64,000 nt of DNA from Micromonospora peucetia (GTDB lineage: Bacteria > Actinomycetota > Actinomycetes > Mycobacteriales > Micromonosporaceae), in contig NZ_FMIC01000002.1 of assembly GCF_900091625.1 (NCBI RefSeq), forward strand, positions 7,192,001-7,256,000. Reading direction: 5' to 3'. The notes beneath the pieces are model-generated. The model saw nothing but the letters and a program-made list of their open reading frames with translations, was not told the origin of the DNA and did no database searches. Below are positions 3,188-10,655 of this stretch, one piece after another; the stretch's first letter is position 1; every line of letters starts with the position of its first letter. The position numbers and the translations under genes are program-made.

Positions 3188-3853
3188 TCAGGCCTCCCCG
3201 GTGGGTCGGGCGGCCTCGACGGCCGCGGCGGTGCGGGCGGCGACCTCGTCCCAACGCCCGGCGGCGATCAGGTCGGGGGCGACCATCCAGGTGCCACCGA
3301 CCGCCAGCACGGCGGGCAGGGCCAGGTAGTCGGAGAGGTTGCCGGTGTTGACCCCGCCGGTCGGGATGAACCGCACCGAGCGGTACGGCGCGGCCAGCGC
3401 CTTGATCGTCCCGACGCCGCCGAGCTGCTCGGCGGGGAAGAACTTGACCGTGTCGAGCCCGGCGTCGAGGGCCATCTGGATCTCGGTGCCGGTGGCGACG
3501 CCGGGGAAGACGGGCACGCCCAGCTCCTGGCAGCGCCGGACGACCGCCGGGGAGAACCCGGGGGTGACGACGAACCGGGCACCGGCCTCGACCGCCTGGT
3601 CGACCTGGGCCGGGCTCAGCACGGTGCCGGCGCCGACGAGCAGGTCGGGTCGCTCGGACATGACGCGGATCGACTCGGCGGCGGCGTCGGTGCGGAAGGT
3701 CACCTCGGCGCAGCGCAGCCCGCCCCGCAGGAGCGCGTCGGCCAGCGGAGCGGCGTCGCGGGCGGCGTCGAGCACGACGACCGGCAGGATCCGGGCCGCA
3801 CCGACGGCCGCAACGGCCGCATGTCTCTGTTCATCATCTTGTACGCCAGTCAC
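3188..3853 (-). CDS. eda: KDPG/KHG aldolase
   Basis: 221 aa, close to the usual 205-220. Cleaves 2-keto-3-deoxy-6-phosphogluconate to pyruvate and glyceraldehyde 3-phosphate. Visible active-site elements are EVTFRT, GAGTVL and the Schiff-base lysine in VKFFPAEQLGG. An upstream in-frame ATG at 3865 sits inside the likely -10 box (TATGGT, 3866-3861), so I chose the GTG at 3853, which begins 7 nt after that box and would give a leaderless mRNA. First gene of the operon with the KDG kinase. A palindrome at 3850-3861 covers the transcription start and points to repression. Confidence 0.9.
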   Translation of the reverse strand: MTGVQDDEQRHAAVAAVGAARILPVVVLDAARDAAPLADALLRGGLRCAEVTFRTDAAAESIRVMSERPDLLVGAGTVLSPAQVDQAVEAGARFVVTPGFSPAVVRRCQELGVPVFPGVATGTEIQMALDAGLDTVKFFPAEQLGGVGTIKALAAPYRSVRFIPTGGVNTGNLSDYLALPAVLAVGGTWMVAPDLIAAGRWDEVAARTAAAVEAARPTGEA

Positions 3854-6443: not shown

Positions 6444-7705
6444 ATGTTCGGAGTACGTAACCGTCGCCGGCGACGGGCGCTCGCCCTCGCCGCGATCGCG
6501 ATCATCGGTGCCACGGTGGCCCTCGTCCTGCCGGTCCGGCCCGAGCCTGCCGAAGCCGCCATCGGGGGATCACCTGGCAGGACGAGTTCAACGCGCCGGC
6601 CGGCACGCCCGTCGACCAGAGCAAATGGCGCTTCGACATCGGCGGCGGCGGTTGGGGCAACAACGAACGGCAGTACTACACCAACAGCACGAGCAACGCG
6701 GTGCACGACGGCCAGGGCAACCTGGTGATCACCGCCCGCCGGGAGAACCCCGCCAACTACCAGTGCCACTACGGCCGGTGCGAGTACACCTCGGCCCGGC
6801 TGCTCACGGCGGCGACCTTCACCCAGGCGTACGGCCGCTTCGAGGCCCGCATCAAGATCCCGCGCGGGCAGGGCATCTGGCCGGCGTTCTGGATGCTCGG
6901 CAACGACATGGGCAGCGTGGGCTGGCCGAACGCGGGCGAGATCGACATCATGGAGAACATCGGCAGGGAGCCGAACACCGTCTACGGCACCATCCACGGC
7001 CCGGGCTACTCGGGCGGCGGCGGCATCACCGGCAGCCGCACGATCGGCCAGCCGCTCGCCGACGCCTTCCACACCTACCGGGTGGACTGGGAACCGAACT
7101 CCATCATCTGGTACCTCGACGGCGTCGAGTTCCACCGGGTCGACCCGGGCCGACTGGGCGGCAACCGCTGGGTGTTCGACCACCCCTTCTTCATGCTCCT
7201 CAACGTGGCGGTGGGTGGGAACTGGCCGGGCTACCCCGACGCCTCCACCCAGTTCCCCCAGCAGATGCTCGTGGACTACGTACGGGTGTCGGGCTACACC
7301 TCCGGCGGCAACCCGCCGACCGGCACCACCCGGCTGCGGGGCGCGCTGAGCGGTCGCTGCGTCGACATCCCCAGCGCCAACCCGGTCGACGGGGCCAAGC
7401 TGCAGATCTGGGACTGCAACACCACCGCCGCGCAGGCATGGACGTTCGCCTCCGACGGCACCGTCCGGGCGATGGGCAAGTGCATGGACCCGGCCTGGGC
7501 CGGCACGGCGAACGGCACCGAGGTCAACCTCGTCACCTGCAACGGCAACCCGGTGCAACGCTTCACCCTCAACGCCGCGGGCGACCTGGTCAACCTCAGC
7601 GCGAACCGCTGCGTCGACGTACGCGACCGCAACCCCGACAACGGAGGCAAGCTGCAACTGTGGGACTGCTCCGGCGACGCCAACCAGAAGTGGTCCCGCG
7701 CCTGA
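6444..7705 (+). pseudogene. secreted glycoside hydrolase family 16 beta-glucanase with ricin-type lectin domain, frameshifted
   Basis: Strong start: AAGGAGG (6431-6437) and ATG at 6444, then an Arg-rich signal peptide (MFGVRNRRRRRALALAAIAI, cleavage after AEAA). The signal peptide and the enzyme are in different frames. The frame breaks in the run of five G at 6564-6568; one more G, or a -1 ribosomal slip there, restores GGITWQDEFNAPAG and the rest of the enzyme. Downstream the frame is intact: GH16 catalytic motif GEIDIMENIG (Glu codons at 6938 and 6953, Asp at 6944), WYLDGVEFHR, then a C-terminal lectin like that of the upstream protease. It could be a sequencing error in a homopolymer, a true null allele, or programmed slippage; the lack of other damage favours the first or a recent event. 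Confidence 0.85.
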
Positions 7706-7790
7706 CCCGTCGGGGAACCACGCGGGCTTCGCCCACTGAAGTTCGTCCGACGAGGCCCGGCGTGAGGCGGGCTCGGGTCTGCCGCTGGCT

Positions 7791-7796
7791 TAGTCT
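7791..7796 (+). promoter_or_regulatory. -10 box of the CoaD-like gene
   Basis: TAGTCT followed 6 nt later by the GTG at 7803, giving a predicted leaderless transcript. No clear -35. Confidence 0.45.
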
Positions 7797-7802
7797 GGCT
7801 TG

Positions 7803-8240
7803 GTGACTCACGCGGCTGATGGCAGTCCCGGGTCGACCCGAGCGGTCTATCCAGGGACGTTCGATCCGTTCACGCCGGGTCATCTGGATGTTGTCGACCG
7901 CGCGCGCCGCATGTTCGATCAGGTCACAGTCCTCGTTGCCGTCAACGACGGCAAGCAGCCGTCTGGGACGACTGTTGCGCGGGCGAGGGAGATCCGGGGC
8001 CTGCTTCCGGCGGGCTGGGAGAACGTCACGGTGGCCGCGTGGCATGGGTTGACCGCCGACTATTGCCGGCGGAATGGGTGCGGGCTGATCATCCGCGGGG
8101 TCAGGAACTCGACCGATTTCTTGCGTGAGTACGAACTCGCCACGATGAATGAGGCGCTGGGCGTCACGACGTTGTTCATGCCTGCCCGGCCGGAGTTGGC
8201 GACGATGTCGTCCACTGCGGTGCGGGCTCTGCGAGCCTGA
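7803..8240 (+). CDS. phosphopantetheine adenylyltransferase-like nucleotidyltransferase (short)
   Basis: 145 aa. HIGH-superfamily nucleotidyltransferase: the CoaD signature YPGTFDPFTPGHLDVVDRA with the TPGH motif near the N-terminus, GLIIRGVRNSTDFLREYELA (substrate-binding RG-R-DF-E) and MSSTAVRALRA equivalent to the ISSS/T motif. True CoaD is about 160 aa and has a further helix pair after ISSS; here the protein stops 7 residues after it. It is therefore probably a CoaD paralogue or a C-terminally clipped copy rather than the essential enzyme. GTG at 7803 (alternative TTG 7800) follows a TAGTCT box. Confidence 0.8.
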   Translation: MTHAADGSPGSTRAVYPGTFDPFTPGHLDVVDRARRMFDQVTVLVAVNDGKQPSGTTVARAREIRGLLPAGWENVTVAAWHGLTADYCRRNGCGLIIRGVRNSTDFLREYELATMNEALGVTTLFMPARPELATMSSTAVRALRA

Positions 8241-8445
8241 GCTGCTCAGGACGGTCGTCGAGCCGGTCGACCCGGACCGGACCCGGCCGCCGCTGCGCCG
8301 CTGGCAGTGGGCCGGGTACGGGCAGAGCCGACCGTACGAGCTGGTGATCCCGCTCGCGGGCATGACGCCCGGCCGGGGCGTACTGCGCCGCGAGCTGGCC
8401 CGCCGGCTGCCCGGCCACGCCGCTGGCTCCCGATCCGTTGTGTGA
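8241..8445 (+). pseudogene. possible C-terminal gene remnant, unrecognised
   Basis: After the CoaD-like stop, another frame reads protein-like text (RPPLRRWQWAGYGQSRPYEL, then PLAGMTPGRGVLRREL) up to a stop at 8445, with no plausible start of its own. Composition and periodicity look coding, but I recognise no family. It may be the tail of a decayed gene. The rest of this gap, 8446-8481, holds nothing I can identify. Confidence 0.25.
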
Positions 8446-8481
8446 CCTGACCGCCCGGAGGATGTCGTGCCACAAAGCGGC

Positions 8482-8511
8482 TTGCCGGTGTACGCGAGCT
8501 TCGCTTACCCT
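8482..8511 (+). promoter_or_regulatory. promoter P1 of the Y RNA-like array
   Basis: TTGCCG (8482-8487), 18-nt spacer, TACCCT (8506-8511). The predicted start, about A8518, coincides with the first base of the outer stem of unit 1. Confidence 0.6.
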
Positions 8512-8517
8512 CGTCGG

Positions 8518-8675
8518 ACACCTCCCGGTGCGCAGGCAACGGCTACTTCCGCTTTCAACGGGGAGACGCGGGTGCAAATCCCGCCGCCGCCGAAAGGCGG
8601 TGTCGATCAGCAGCCCAGGTCACCTTGGCCCGCGAGGGCCGGTCTCCGTTGCCGTTCTGATCTCGGAAGGGGTGC
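8518..8675 (+). ncRNA. Y RNA-like unit 1 with tRNA T-arm mimic
   Basis: Outer stem CACCTC (8519-8524) with GGGGTG (8669-8674) plus CCG/CGG; internal loop; inner stem GGCAACGG (8535-8542) with CCGTTGCC (8646-8653), 8 of 8 paired. The 5' strand reads GGTGCGCAGGCAAC, close to the vertebrate Y RNA Ro60-binding sequence GGUCCGAAGGUAGU, and the 3' strand ends TGATCTCGG. The distal domain contains a T-arm mimic at 8568-8584 (GCGGG, loop TGCAAAT, CCCGC; tRNA consensus loop TTCAAAT) and a GAAA tetraloop hairpin at 8587-8600. This matches the known build of bacterial YrlA: a Ro60-binding stem plus tRNA-like module. Expected to bind the TROVE protein encoded at 9129. Confidence 0.75.
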
Positions 8676-8681
8676 CACGCC

Positions 8682-8779
8682 GCGTACCCCGGTGCGACGG
8701 AGACAGCTACTTCCTGGCTTGCAGCCTGGCCCGCGGTGGGAATCCGCGAAGCTGTGTCCGACCTTGATCTCGGGTACGT
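8682..8779 (+). ncRNA. Y RNA-like unit 2 with T-arm-like hairpin
   Basis: Outer stem CGTACCC (8683-8689) with GGGTACG (8772-8778), perfect; inner stem GGAGACAGCT (8699-8708) with AGCTGTGTCC (8750-8759), 9 of 10 paired. Ro60-like motif GGTGCGACGGAGAC on the 5' strand, TTGATCTCGG on the 3' strand. The distal part has a GGCT/AGCC hairpin and a 5-bp stem, 7-nt loop arm at 8732-8748 (CGCGG, TGGGAAT, CCGCG), i.e. T-arm geometry with a partly diverged loop. No promoter is visible between unit 1 and unit 2, so it is probably cut from or joined to the unit 1 transcript. Confidence 0.7.
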
Positions 8780-8792
8780 GGCGTCGCCCGTT

Positions 8793-8821
8793 TCCGGCCT
8801 CCGTGACCATGGGCCGGCAAA
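8793..8821 (+). terminator. possible terminator/processing hairpin after unit 2
   Basis: CCGGCC (8794-8799) pairs with GGCCGG (8812-8817), extended by TTT/AAA around one bulged base. No U-tract follows, so termination is uncertain. It lies just before promoter P2. Confidence 0.35.
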
Positions 8822-8826
8822 CTCCG

Positions 8827-8856
8827 TTGTCCGCCTGTCGCCGCCACCGCTACCGT
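8827..8856 (+). promoter_or_regulatory. promoter P2 of the Y RNA-like array
   Basis: TTGTCC (8827-8832), 18-nt spacer, TACCGT (8851-8856), predicted start about G8864, the first base of the unit 3 stem. Same hexamer type, same spacing and same distance to the RNA as P1. Confidence 0.6.
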
Positions 8857-8863
8857 CGTGCCC

Positions 8864-8957
8864 GCACCTCCCGGTGCGAAGGCGACGGTTACATCTTGGA
8901 GGGGCGCACGCCCCGTTGAAGAGCCCGTCCGTCGCCGGCTCAGATCTCGGGAGGCGC
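8864..8957 (+). ncRNA. Y RNA-like unit 3 (short form)
   Basis: Outer stem CCTCCCG (8867-8873) with CGGGAGG (8948-8954), extended by GC/GC; inner stem GGCGACGG (8881-8888) with CCGTCGCC (8929-8936), perfect. Ro60-like motif GGTGCGAAGGCGAC (the nearest of the four to the animal sequence), 3' strand CAGATCTCGG. The distal domain is short: one hairpin GGGGC-GCAC-GCCCC at 8901-8914 and no T-arm. Confidence 0.7.
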
Positions 8958-8960
8958 GAC

Positions 8961-9089
8961 CACACCGGTATCCGGTGCGCAGGCAACGGTTGCTTCAGTG
9001 ATCCCCCATGGGGGTCTCGGTCCGCCGGACACCCACGGGTGGACGGCAGCCACCTCCGTCGCCGACCTCGGTCTCGGATACCCGGTGCG
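8961..9089 (+). ncRNA. Y RNA-like unit 4 / leader of the Ro60 mRNA
   Basis: Outer stem CACC plus GGTATCCG (8963-8974) with CGGATACC plus GGTG (9075-9087), 12 bp with one bulge; inner stem GGCAACGG (8982-8989) with CCGTCGCC (9056-9063), one A.C mismatch. The Ro60-like motif is identical to unit 1. The distal domain holds the palindrome CCCCCATGGGGG (9003-9014) and small hairpins at 9020-9040. It ends 39 nt before the Ro60 start codon, so it may act both as RNA ligand and as an mRNA leader. Confidence 0.65.
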
Positions 9090-9128
9090 GTCGTGCCTCC
9101 TACCGCTCGACGGCATGTGGGGGACACG

Positions 9129-10655
9129 ATGGCCAAGTTCAACCTCAAGCGGGGCAACCAGCAGGACGTCGTCACCGCCGAGGGCGCGCCCGGTTTCACC
9201 CGCGAGCCGCGCACCGAACTGTTCCTGCTGGGTGTGTCGAACATGGTCGGTGAGGACACCTTCTACGAGGGCGTCGCCGACCGGGACGCCCGGTTCCGTG
9301 AGCTGGTCGCCGCCGTGGCTGTCGCCGACCCCGACTGGTTCGCGCGCTTCGTGCGTTGGCTGCGTACCGGCGCGATGCTGCGTTCGGCGTCCGTCGTGGC
9401 CGCCCTGGAGGGCGCCCGCGCCCAGGTCGCCGCCGGCATCCCGGGCTCCCGGGCCGTGGTCGACTCCGCGTTGCAGCGGGCCGACGAGCCGGGCGAGGCC
9501 ATCGCGTACTGGCTGGGCCGCCACGGGCGGGCGATGCCCAAGCCGGTCAAGCGGGGCATCGCCGACGCGGCGGTGCGGCTGTACCACGAGCGGAGCCTGC
9601 TCAAGTACGACGCCGACGGCAGCGCGGTACGGTTCGGCGACGTCATCGACCTGACCCACCCGACGGCGCGGGACGAGCGGCAGGGCGACCTCTTCCGACA
9701 CGCGTTGGACCGCCGGCACAAACGCGACAACCCGTTGCCGCAGTCCCTGACGGTGCTGGCGGCCCGGGCCGAGCTCATGGCGTTGCCGGTCGAGCGGCGC
9801 GCGGAGGTCACCGACCCGGCGGTGCTGGGCGCGGCCGGCATGACCTGGGAGGCCCTCGCGGGCTGGCGGCAGACCGCGATGGACGCCGCCGCGTGGGAGG
9901 CGGTCATCCCGAACATGGGCTACCTGGCGCTGCTGCGCAACCTGCGCAACTTCGACCGGGCCGGCGTCAGCGACGCCGTCGCCGAGGCGGTGGCGGCCAG
10001 GCTGGCCGATCCGGACGAGGTCGCCCGGTCACGCGTGCTGCCGATGCGGTACCTGTCGGCGTACAACGCGGCACCGAGCCTGCGGTGGGCGTACCCGTTG
10101 GAGAAGGCGTTGCGGCAGGCGCTGGCGAACGTGCCCGCCCTGGACGCGCGGACCCTGATCCTGATCGACACGTCGGGGTCGATGAACAGCGCGTTCAGCA
10201 GGGACGGCACGCTGCGCTGCTGGGACGCGGCCACCGTGTTCGGCCTCGCGCTGGACGCCCGAGCGCGGGAGGCCACGGTGGTGTCGTTCTCCAACGCCAG
10301 CGCGGTGTTCCCGGCCGTCGCCGGCGAGTCGGTGCTGGCGGCGGTGCGCCGGTTCAAGGAGGGCGGCTTCTTCTACGGCCGCGGGACCGAGACCGGGAAG
10401 GCGGTACGCGAGCACTACGACCGGCACGACCGGGTGGTCATCCTCACCGACGAGCAGGCGCACTGGCAGGGCGCACATGACGTCACGGCCGCCGTGCCCG
10501 CGCGGGTTCCGGTGTACACCTGGAACCTGGCCGGATACCGGGTCGGACACGCGCCGACGGCCGGCAACCGGCACACGTTCGGCGGCCTGTCCGACGCCGC
10601 GTTCGCCATGATCCCGCTCATCGAGGCGGGGTCGCGCGGCCACTGGCCCTTCTGA
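9129..10655 (+). CDS. rsr: Ro60-family TROVE-vWA RNA-binding protein
   Basis: 508 aa. Ring of TROVE HEAT-like repeats (about residues 10-335; opening MAKFNLKRGNQQDVVTAEGA, then ELFLLGVSNMVGEDTFYE) followed by a von Willebrand A domain with a complete MIDAS (D347-T-S349-G-S351) and a C-terminal WNLAGY region. Orthologues bind Y RNAs on the outer surface and pass 3' ends of damaged RNA through the ring; in bacteria the RNP can tether polynucleotide phosphorylase. ATG at 9129 follows GGGGGA (9118-9123); the frame is open upstream to 8736 but that part is the RNA array. The four RNA units directly upstream are its probable partners. No rtcB or rtcA gene is adjacent. Confidence 0.93.
   Translation: MAKFNLKRGNQQDVVTAEGAPGFTREPRTELFLLGVSNMVGEDTFYEGVADRDARFRELVAAVAVADPDWFARFVRWLRTGAMLRSASVVAALEGARAQVAAGIPGSRAVVDSALQRADEPGEAIAYWLGRHGRAMPKPVKRGIADAAVRLYHERSLLKYDADGSAVRFGDVIDLTHPTARDERQGDLFRHALDRRHKRDNPLPQSLTVLAARAELMALPVERRAEVTDPAVLGAAGMTWEALAGWRQTAMDAAAWEAVIPNMGYLALLRNLRNFDRAGVSDAVAEAVAARLADPDEVARSRVLPMRYLSAYNAAPSLRWAYPLEKALRQALANVPALDARTLILIDTSGSMNSAFSRDGTLRCWDAATVFGLALDARAREATVVSFSNASAVFPAVAGESVLAAVRRFKEGGFFYGRGTETGKAVREHYDRHDRVVILTDEQAHWQGAHDVTAAVPARVPVYTWNLAGYRVGHAPTAGNRHTFGGLSDAAFAMIPLIEAGSRGHWPF

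Follow-up and report, generated by a model that had tools for sequence, protein, structure and literature searches.

Candidate Y RNA arrays with one Ro60-type stem and several kinds of head upstream of an actinobacterial Ro60 gene

Introduction

Bacterial Y RNAs encoded beside Ro60 are an already known kind of RNA. Work by Chen from 2014 is said to have found likely Y RNAs near Ro60 in more than 250 bacterial and phage species, and reportedly at least one tRNA-like Y RNA in each species. YrlA and other bacterial Y RNAs, such as those of Salmonella (yrlBA) and Mycobacterium smegmatis, adjoin the Ro60 gene and close on themselves through a basal stem, and the head of YrlA carries the permuted order of T-arm, acceptor-like hairpin and D-arm. 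According to passages of PMC4726728 and PMC8394870, the Y RNA of Deinococcus radiodurans also has a basal stem and a Ro60-type protein partner; it tethers this protein, Rsr (Ro60), to PNPase and gates its substrates, with the basal stem binding Rsr and the tRNA-like head of YrlA contacting PNPase. A passage of PMC8394870 further reports that TruB acts on YrlA. The parts of PMC7790460 cited here describe a Salmonella operon, rsr-yrlBA-rtcBA, that responds to tRNA damage, and state that by 2020 functional studies of bacterial Ro60 and Y RNAs were confined to Deinococcus. Animal Y RNAs, as portrayed in sections of PMC4726728 and PMC4030889, combine a bulged stem that binds Ro60 with a variable head, a layout like that of the units described below.

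The locus analyzed here shares with these systems the adjoining Ro60 gene and the basal stem, and its relatives have heads in the YrlA order. It differs in number, as the excerpts of PMC7790460 give Salmonella two Y RNAs vs one to six units upstream of Ro60 here, and in kind: unlike YrlA, the arrays mix several types of head and are missed by the Rfam cut-off, and the units of the window have no canonical T-loop.

Results

The window, a stretch of 64 kb (contig C2:7192001-7256000 of a 7.37 Mb genome), contains four tandem units on the plus strand: A at 8514..8676, B at 8677..8783, C at 8860..8960 and D at 8961..9087. The first-pass annotation had described four tandem Y RNA-like blocks upstream of a Ro60 gene; they are present, and the model coordinates lie close to where it had placed them. 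The motif CCGGTGCGNNGGNNACNG has four mismatch-free copies in the 64 kb, all on the plus strand (at 8525, 8689, 8871 and 8972) and all within 615 bases upstream of ro60, while the next-best match in the window has one mismatch; a repeat search of the window returned the same four-copy family, 31 nt long. Two covariance models, R1 and R2, were built from units of other species, and their E-values are rough. R1 gave 80.1 bits to unit A (E 2.1e-17), 40.6 bits to B (E 3.9e-8), 49.2 bits to C and 56.7 bits to D (E 6.6e-12, the score coming from the Ro-type stem), and R2 gave 62.8 bits to C; orthologues of A, B and C are assembled in alignments A3, A4 and A5, respectively. Below E 0.1, both models match only the four units in the window, with E-values from 2e-17 to 4e-8 for R1 (next match 0.31) and from 3.5e-10 to 1.9e-6 for R2 (next match 0.16). 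When 150 candidates were scored across the whole genome, the four units ranked top with R1 and were its sole model-spanning matches below E 0.01, weaker full-span matches starting at E 0.013. R2, likewise with 150 candidates, matched the four units only, unit A weakly (21.7 bits, E 3.5, partial, vs 54.8 bits in the window search). A scanner for motif plus pairing, whose acceptance of units depends in part on pairing and which may overlook units or report extra ones, recovered all four in the first 12 kb together with a lower-scoring place at 3229-3427; the remaining 52 kb gave one place on each strand.

The gene downstream (9129..10655, plus strand) encodes a Ro60 (TROVE) protein of 508 aa and starts 41 bases after the end of unit D, so that the units are encoded beside Ro60 as are bacterial Y RNAs in the broad sense. 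PF05731 matches residues 239-315 (E 5e-15, 56 bits against a cut-off of 23), identifying a TROVE protein, and residues 14-504 align with chains 9l5y and 9kop (TROVE domain-containing protein, E 6e-31). This is the sole TROVE match in the genome, and the protein is 91-92% identical to those of the two nearest relatives, L003 (91%) and L004 (92%). An RtcB gene is present in the genome, far from the array.

All four stem pairs quoted on first pass were found in the window, GGCAACGG/CCGTTGCC in unit 1 (A), CGTACCC/GGGTACG in unit 2 (B), GGCGACGG/CCGTCGCC in unit 3 (C) and GGTATCCG/CGGATACC in unit 4 (D), but two helices proved to be mismatched: the inner helix of D sets GGCAACGG against CCGTCGCC with one A-C mismatch, and the outer helix of A has CGGAAGG where most relatives have CGGGAGG. 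Compared with dinucleotide shuffles, units B and C fold to far lower energies (z -4.73 and -4.11) and units A and D to no better ones (z -1.6 and -0.8), and the case for the units therefore rests on comparison, not on energy. In the class D alignment, the base of the unit begins with an outer helix of ten pairs, a single bulged U on the 3' strand and one further G-C pair. Above these lie a UG/AU internal loop and two pairs, then an asymmetric loop, and an inner helix of seven to eight pairs leads to the head. Constancy is greatest in the loop strands CGGTGCG and TCTCGG; the outer helix and the acceptor-like hairpin are the most variable and best covarying.

That stem bases change in a compensatory manner, as the first-pass annotation had concluded from the window, was borne out in related loci. 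In class D (alignment A2, 29 of 30 units, the window's own D unit left out), 11 of 40 pairs are changed on both sides, giving 56 both-side-changed cells against 15.9 in shuffles, a value that none of 500 shuffles reached; sliding the register lowers pairing from 98.6% to 36-49%. In class B (A4, 17 of 20 listed units, three short ones omitted), both sides are changed in 7 of 34 pairs, again unmatched in 500 shuffles, and among 44 actinobacterial tRNA-type units in 22 of 33. A measure of further pair types is unremarkable in class B (102/500 shuffles as high), and its class D value is reached by 10/500. The structures behind these counts were predicted from the same alignments; members of A2-A5 were chosen by 5' motif and position, and scanner units were kept out of the covariation counts. 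Alignment A6 comprises 40 motif matches and four genus units, chosen by sequence motifs that include T-loop and D-arm, and the conservation of these two elements in A6 is thus due to selection; A7, the basis of R2, holds 39 of 42 scanner units. Covariation keeps the basal stem with its conserved internal loop, as expected of bacterial Y RNAs in the broad sense, and the window units match both models.

Above the stem, the units diverge. Among the clusters listed, a few classes recur across the genus in much the same order. Class A (about 156 nt) has a T-arm and an unusual second part, class B (about 105 nt) a hairpin and a T-arm, class C (about 95 nt) a plain hairpin and class D (about 140 nt) a complete tRNA mimic in the permuted YrlA order, composed of T-arm, acceptor-like hairpin, D-arm and a UCCGC/GCGGA helix resembling an anticodon stem; some genus arrays also include another D-like unit or a short one of about 75 nt. 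Over 315 units in 117 distinct arrays, 114 have T-loop and D-arm, 106 a T-loop only and 95 neither. The canonical T-loop pattern is found in 220 of the 315, and 108 of the 117 arrays keep at least one unit with it.

In the window, none of the four units has this pattern, and among the nine arrays without it the window's is the sole one with more than two units. The T-arm-like hairpin of unit A (GCGGG-TGCAAAT-CCCGC, 8568..8584, plus strand) still pairs in its stem, with TGCAAAT replacing TTC[GA]AAT in the loop; TTC occupies this position in 22 of 24 aligned class A units, whereas L002, the window's locus, and L003 have TGC, which also occurs in L004. That of unit B (CGCGG-TGGGAAT-CCGCG, 8732..8748, plus strand) pairs likewise around the loop TGGGAAT, and here TTC is present in 16 of 17 aligned class B units (15 by pattern, L032 by eye), the exception being TGG in the window. 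With their T-stems still pairing, the loops of A and B possibly reflect erosion rather than full loss. We take the changed base to be U55 in standard tRNA numbering, the site at which TruB makes pseudouridine. The head of unit C is a plain hairpin without T- or D-arm motif. Unit D has kept the Ro-type stem, with its T- and D-arms replaced by two other hairpins; GGTTCGA is present in all 29 aligned class D relatives, and L003 (91% Ro60 identity) retains canonical D-type units. The candidates scored with R1 and R2 in the window's genome included no other tRNA-type Y RNA. As judged from these comparisons, the window's strain appears to have largely lost the tRNA look-alike heads that are usual in the arrays of its relatives.

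By the scanner, at least one unit lies upstream of Ro60 in 138 of 141 related loci (window and duplicate places included), four loci with Ro60 identity below 45% and L008, at a contig edge, having been dropped beforehand and L001, the same place as L002, being excluded from counts. The exceptions are L004, with an array cut short, and Dactylosporangium vinaceum (L055 and L126, the same place), in which Ro60 is present and the scanner found no unit. Made distinct by last-unit sequence and Ro60 start, the 138 loci yield the 117 arrays, with one (17 arrays), two (45), three (20), four (30), five (2) or six (3) units. The four-member array had been thought larger than known systems, an impression not sustained by the 30 of 117 arrays and 18 of the 30 genus loci L002-L031 that have four units; by this sample, four is ordinary for the genus. 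Across 92 loci, 232 scanner matches lay upstream in 394 kb vs 17 downstream in 398 kb, with 25 on the minus strand over the full loci; in 54 loci, 161 units were found vs one minus-strand match in 78.6 kb.

Ro60 is patchily distributed, with matches in 36 of 151 genus genomes. R2, applied with stricter filters and 31 candidates scored per genome, matched in 27 of these 36 and in none of the 115 Ro60-negative genomes (Fisher p 2e-22), four of the 27 having contributed to the training of R2. The nine Ro60-positive genomes without an R2 match comprise four with two units each by the scanner (G001, G006, G007, G150), the genome of the cut-short array L004 (G025) and four with partial or weak Ro60 matches (G088, G099, G100, G124). 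In G069, units and Ro60 are on different contigs, and the contig with Ro60 has 202 bases ahead of the gene. Beyond the genus, units lie upstream of Ro60 in Streptomyces, Nocardia, Amycolatopsis, Actinomadura, Catellatospora and others, in an uneven sample of genera in which one scan covered the best 80 of at least 491 related places. The proposal of a four-member Y RNA-like array serving one Ro60 is supported by the genus sample, in which such arrays are conserved, covarying and tied to Ro60.

Some genomes have two Ro60 genes (L081 with L078 and L082 with L084, both Catellatospora; L066 with L060), and in these one copy is accompanied by a single short unit without a tRNA-like head.

A sigma-70-like pattern (TTGNNN, 16-19 nt, TANNNT; consensus matches only) is found ahead of unit A (TTGCCG-18-TACCCT, 8482..8511, plus strand), at the same distance in many relatives, and ahead of unit C (TTGTCC-18-TACCGT, 8827..8856, plus strand). 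Such sites precede 48 of 117 first units and, among units set off by 40 nt or more from the one before, 37 of 59 (together 85 of 176, the other 91 having no pattern site); as controls, stretches within and downstream of ro60 gave 3 of 3510 and shuffled upstream sequences 45 of 6300. The sites were found before none of 139 abutting units, most often 7 nt apart by scanner unit ends, and in none of the 117 arrays between the last unit and Ro60. In 84 of 88 cases the distance from the end of the site to the unit is 4-9 nt, so the predicted start falls at about the first base of the outer stem. From this distribution, the arrays are predicted to give precursors of one to several units, with readthrough into ro60, that are then cut.

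None of the window units, and nothing in 10 related loci, matched Rfam at gathering score. Tested as YrlA (RF02553), unit A reached 18.9 bits against a gathering score of 69, and the canonical T-loop is absent in all four units; with these two defining features of YrlA missing, the units are classed among bacterial Y RNAs in the broad sense rather than as YrlA. The tRNA-type units of three related loci score 34.2-48.6 bits against YrlA (E 4e-4 to 3e-8). Under lenient settings unit A also scored 20.1 bits as tRNA, below gathering score, and 23.6 bits as twister-sister ribozyme (RF02681; gathering score 34), a candidate that was rejected and whose match overlaps the T-arm region; unit B as Deinococcus Y RNA (RF01053) was likewise rejected at 19.4 bits against a gathering score of 80. 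The kinship of the 5' motif with an animal Y RNA sequence, suggested on first pass, found no support, as no Rfam animal Y RNA matched in 7700-9300 at E up to 10. What the units share with animal Y RNAs is their layout, with no detectable likeness in sequence.

The arrays extend to actinobacteriophages, whose Ro-like proteins are 42-49% identical to Ro60; five of 51 phage records with a match were examined, with units beside the phage Ro60 genes (L148, L149, L150, L151, L152). As in bacteria, phages VanLee, Neville, BRock and GiJojo have strong full-length R1 matches upstream of the Ro60 gene, whereas phage Atuin has a weak unit upstream (E 0.001-0.01) and a strong one downstream. Gordonia phage VanLee (L150 1822-2362) has two tRNA-type units (E 9e-23 and 3e-17) and two short units that are weak alone (E 0.055 and 0.14). 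The phage loci sit among phage tRNA genes, and in VanLee and GiJojo genes annotated as tRNA-Arg overlap with tRNA-type Y units, a possible misannotation.

Comparison of 30 genus loci showed that the flanks of the cassette are common to small groups of relatives and differ in most other pairs; the window, L003 and L004 share the downstream flank. An earlier picture of a freely moving cassette, based on nine loci with one shared stretch of 306 bases in one pair, was corrected by this comparison, in which near relatives share flanks. The patchy presence of Ro60 and flanks that differ between most groups fit a cassette that moves now and then. A mycobacterial survey names yrlA among candidates for horizontal transfer (in a passage of PMC9569102). 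Directly upstream of the array, the window has a CoaD-like (cytidylyltransferase-like) gene of 146 aa (7800-8240, plus strand), of which no homologue was found in the flanks of the other loci compared. L004 shares the upstream flank as far as 7707 and then runs straight into unit A, so the stretch with this gene was apparently gained in the window or lost in L004. In L004 the segment from mid unit A to about Ro60 codon 14 is absent (L004 1360-1510), either by deletion or as an assembly artefact.

Discussion

The units, their conservation and covariation, their linkage to Ro60 and the promoter-like sites were computed directly. We propose that the block in the window constitutes four Y RNA genes whose products would be RNA partners of the adjoining Ro60, with a common Ro60-type basal part (outer helix, CGGUGCG / UCUCGG internal loop, inner helix) and a head that differs per RNA. 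Transcription from two sigma-70-like promoters, at A and C, would begin with the first base of the outer stem, B being co-transcribed with A and D with C; as ro60 has no promoter-like site of its own, the C-D transcript would probably continue into ro60. A nuclease would then cut the precursor, giving RNAs roughly 100-160 nt long. On the model of Deinococcus and Salmonella, the basal stem may hold Ro60 and the head may recruit or gate another factor (PNPase or tRNA-acting enzymes), so that with several heads one Ro60 could form several different particles. Expression, processing, Ro60 binding and the role of the heads are what we infer for these loci; the likeliest arrangement is one Ro60 with several adaptor RNAs. 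That the loci encode Y RNAs with one Ro60-type stem, different heads, few promoters and readthrough into ro60 is, in our assessment, highly probable.

The units might alternatively form a cis-acting leader of the ro60 mRNA, through which Ro60 would bind its own transcript and tune its own expression, free Y RNAs being minor. The short distance of 41 bases between unit D and the start codon speaks for this, as does the lack of an intervening promoter-like site in any of the 117 arrays, by which units C and D are probably part of the ro60 transcript. A pure leader, however, would have no need of diverse conserved heads, many of them tRNA mimics, and the promoter-like sites predict starts at unit ends, also before upstream units. 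In Salmonella, moreover, passages of PMC7790460 name the Y RNA genes after rsr in the operon rsr-yrlBA-rtcBA. We consider a leader that largely replaces free Y RNAs very improbable, and the two roles may coexist. That the repeats are a chance or coding feature, with the overlapping open frames at 8467-8919 (plus strand) and 8555-9259 (minus strand) encoding protein, can practically be dismissed: frames of 150 and 234 aa are present, but such frames are common in G+C-rich DNA, neither has a Pfam match, indels between orthologous units do not come in threes and paired changes track RNA helices.

Somewhat less remote, yet still unlikely, is that the array is decaying in the window's strain. The altered T-loops of A and B, the replaced head and the mismatch of D and the truncated array of a relative all fit such a process: the nine arrays without a canonical T-loop include only this one with more than two units, TGC in the T-loop of unit A recurs in L003 and L004, and L004 is without the part from mid unit A into Ro60. 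Against decay, Ro60 is intact over its 508 aa and 91-92% identical to its two nearest relatives, all four copies of the 5' motif are perfect and the promoter-like sites are kept. The T-stems of A and B still pair, and the outer helix of D is fully paired over GGTATCCG/CGGATACC despite a sequence unlike that of its relatives.

If the favored reading of several Y RNAs serving one Ro60 is true, these loci offer a natural set of Y RNAs that combine a constant handle with different heads next to a single Ro60, in which head function (PNPase tethering, recruitment of tRNA enzymes or gating) could be tested by swaps, and the window's strain would be a natural test of the need for tRNA mimicry. R1 and R2 find units below the Rfam cut-off, and by their matches some phage Y RNAs seem to be listed as tRNAs. 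A broader interpretation, tentative and in our judgement somewhat short of an even chance, would see actinobacterial Ro60 with a polycistronic adaptor set of up to six Y RNAs, sharing a handle and carrying exchangeable heads (permuted-tRNA mimic, T-arm only or plain hairpin), as one cassette at chromosomal places that differ by subgroup, and in phages; the window's strain would then be independent of tRNA mimicry, against the reported rule of at least one tRNA-like Y RNA per species. In the literature searched we found nothing on actinobacterial Y RNA arrays; the data of Chen from 2014 may include multi-member arrays, which makes priority uncertain. The same literature yielded no account of an array organization with few promoters, of several head classes per array or of a strain without canonical T-loops.

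Elsewhere in the genome, R1 gave a partial match at C1:45345-45431 (39.5 bits, E 8e-6, model positions 36-119) on a contig of 96 kb. This stretch (L157 1501-1587) was rejected as a Y RNA with a Ro stem and reads as a permuted tRNA without one: it has the layout of a YrlA head, with a tRNA 3' half, a short linker and a 5' half, followed by a G+C-rich hairpin, and ARAGORN did not find it. Of the next five R1 matches in the genome, those in L159, L160 and L162 have tRNA genes in their loci, whereas L158 and L161 have none; L158 contains a T-arm-like stretch. The permuted stretch occurs in 3 of 151 genus genomes, the window's included, and has relatives in five plasmid records, NZ_CP054924.1 and NC_006363.1 among them (one of Verrucosispora and four of Nocardia farcinica), in which no annotated feature is listed under the match. 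Across three aligned copies, its acceptor-stem pairs are changed on both sides.
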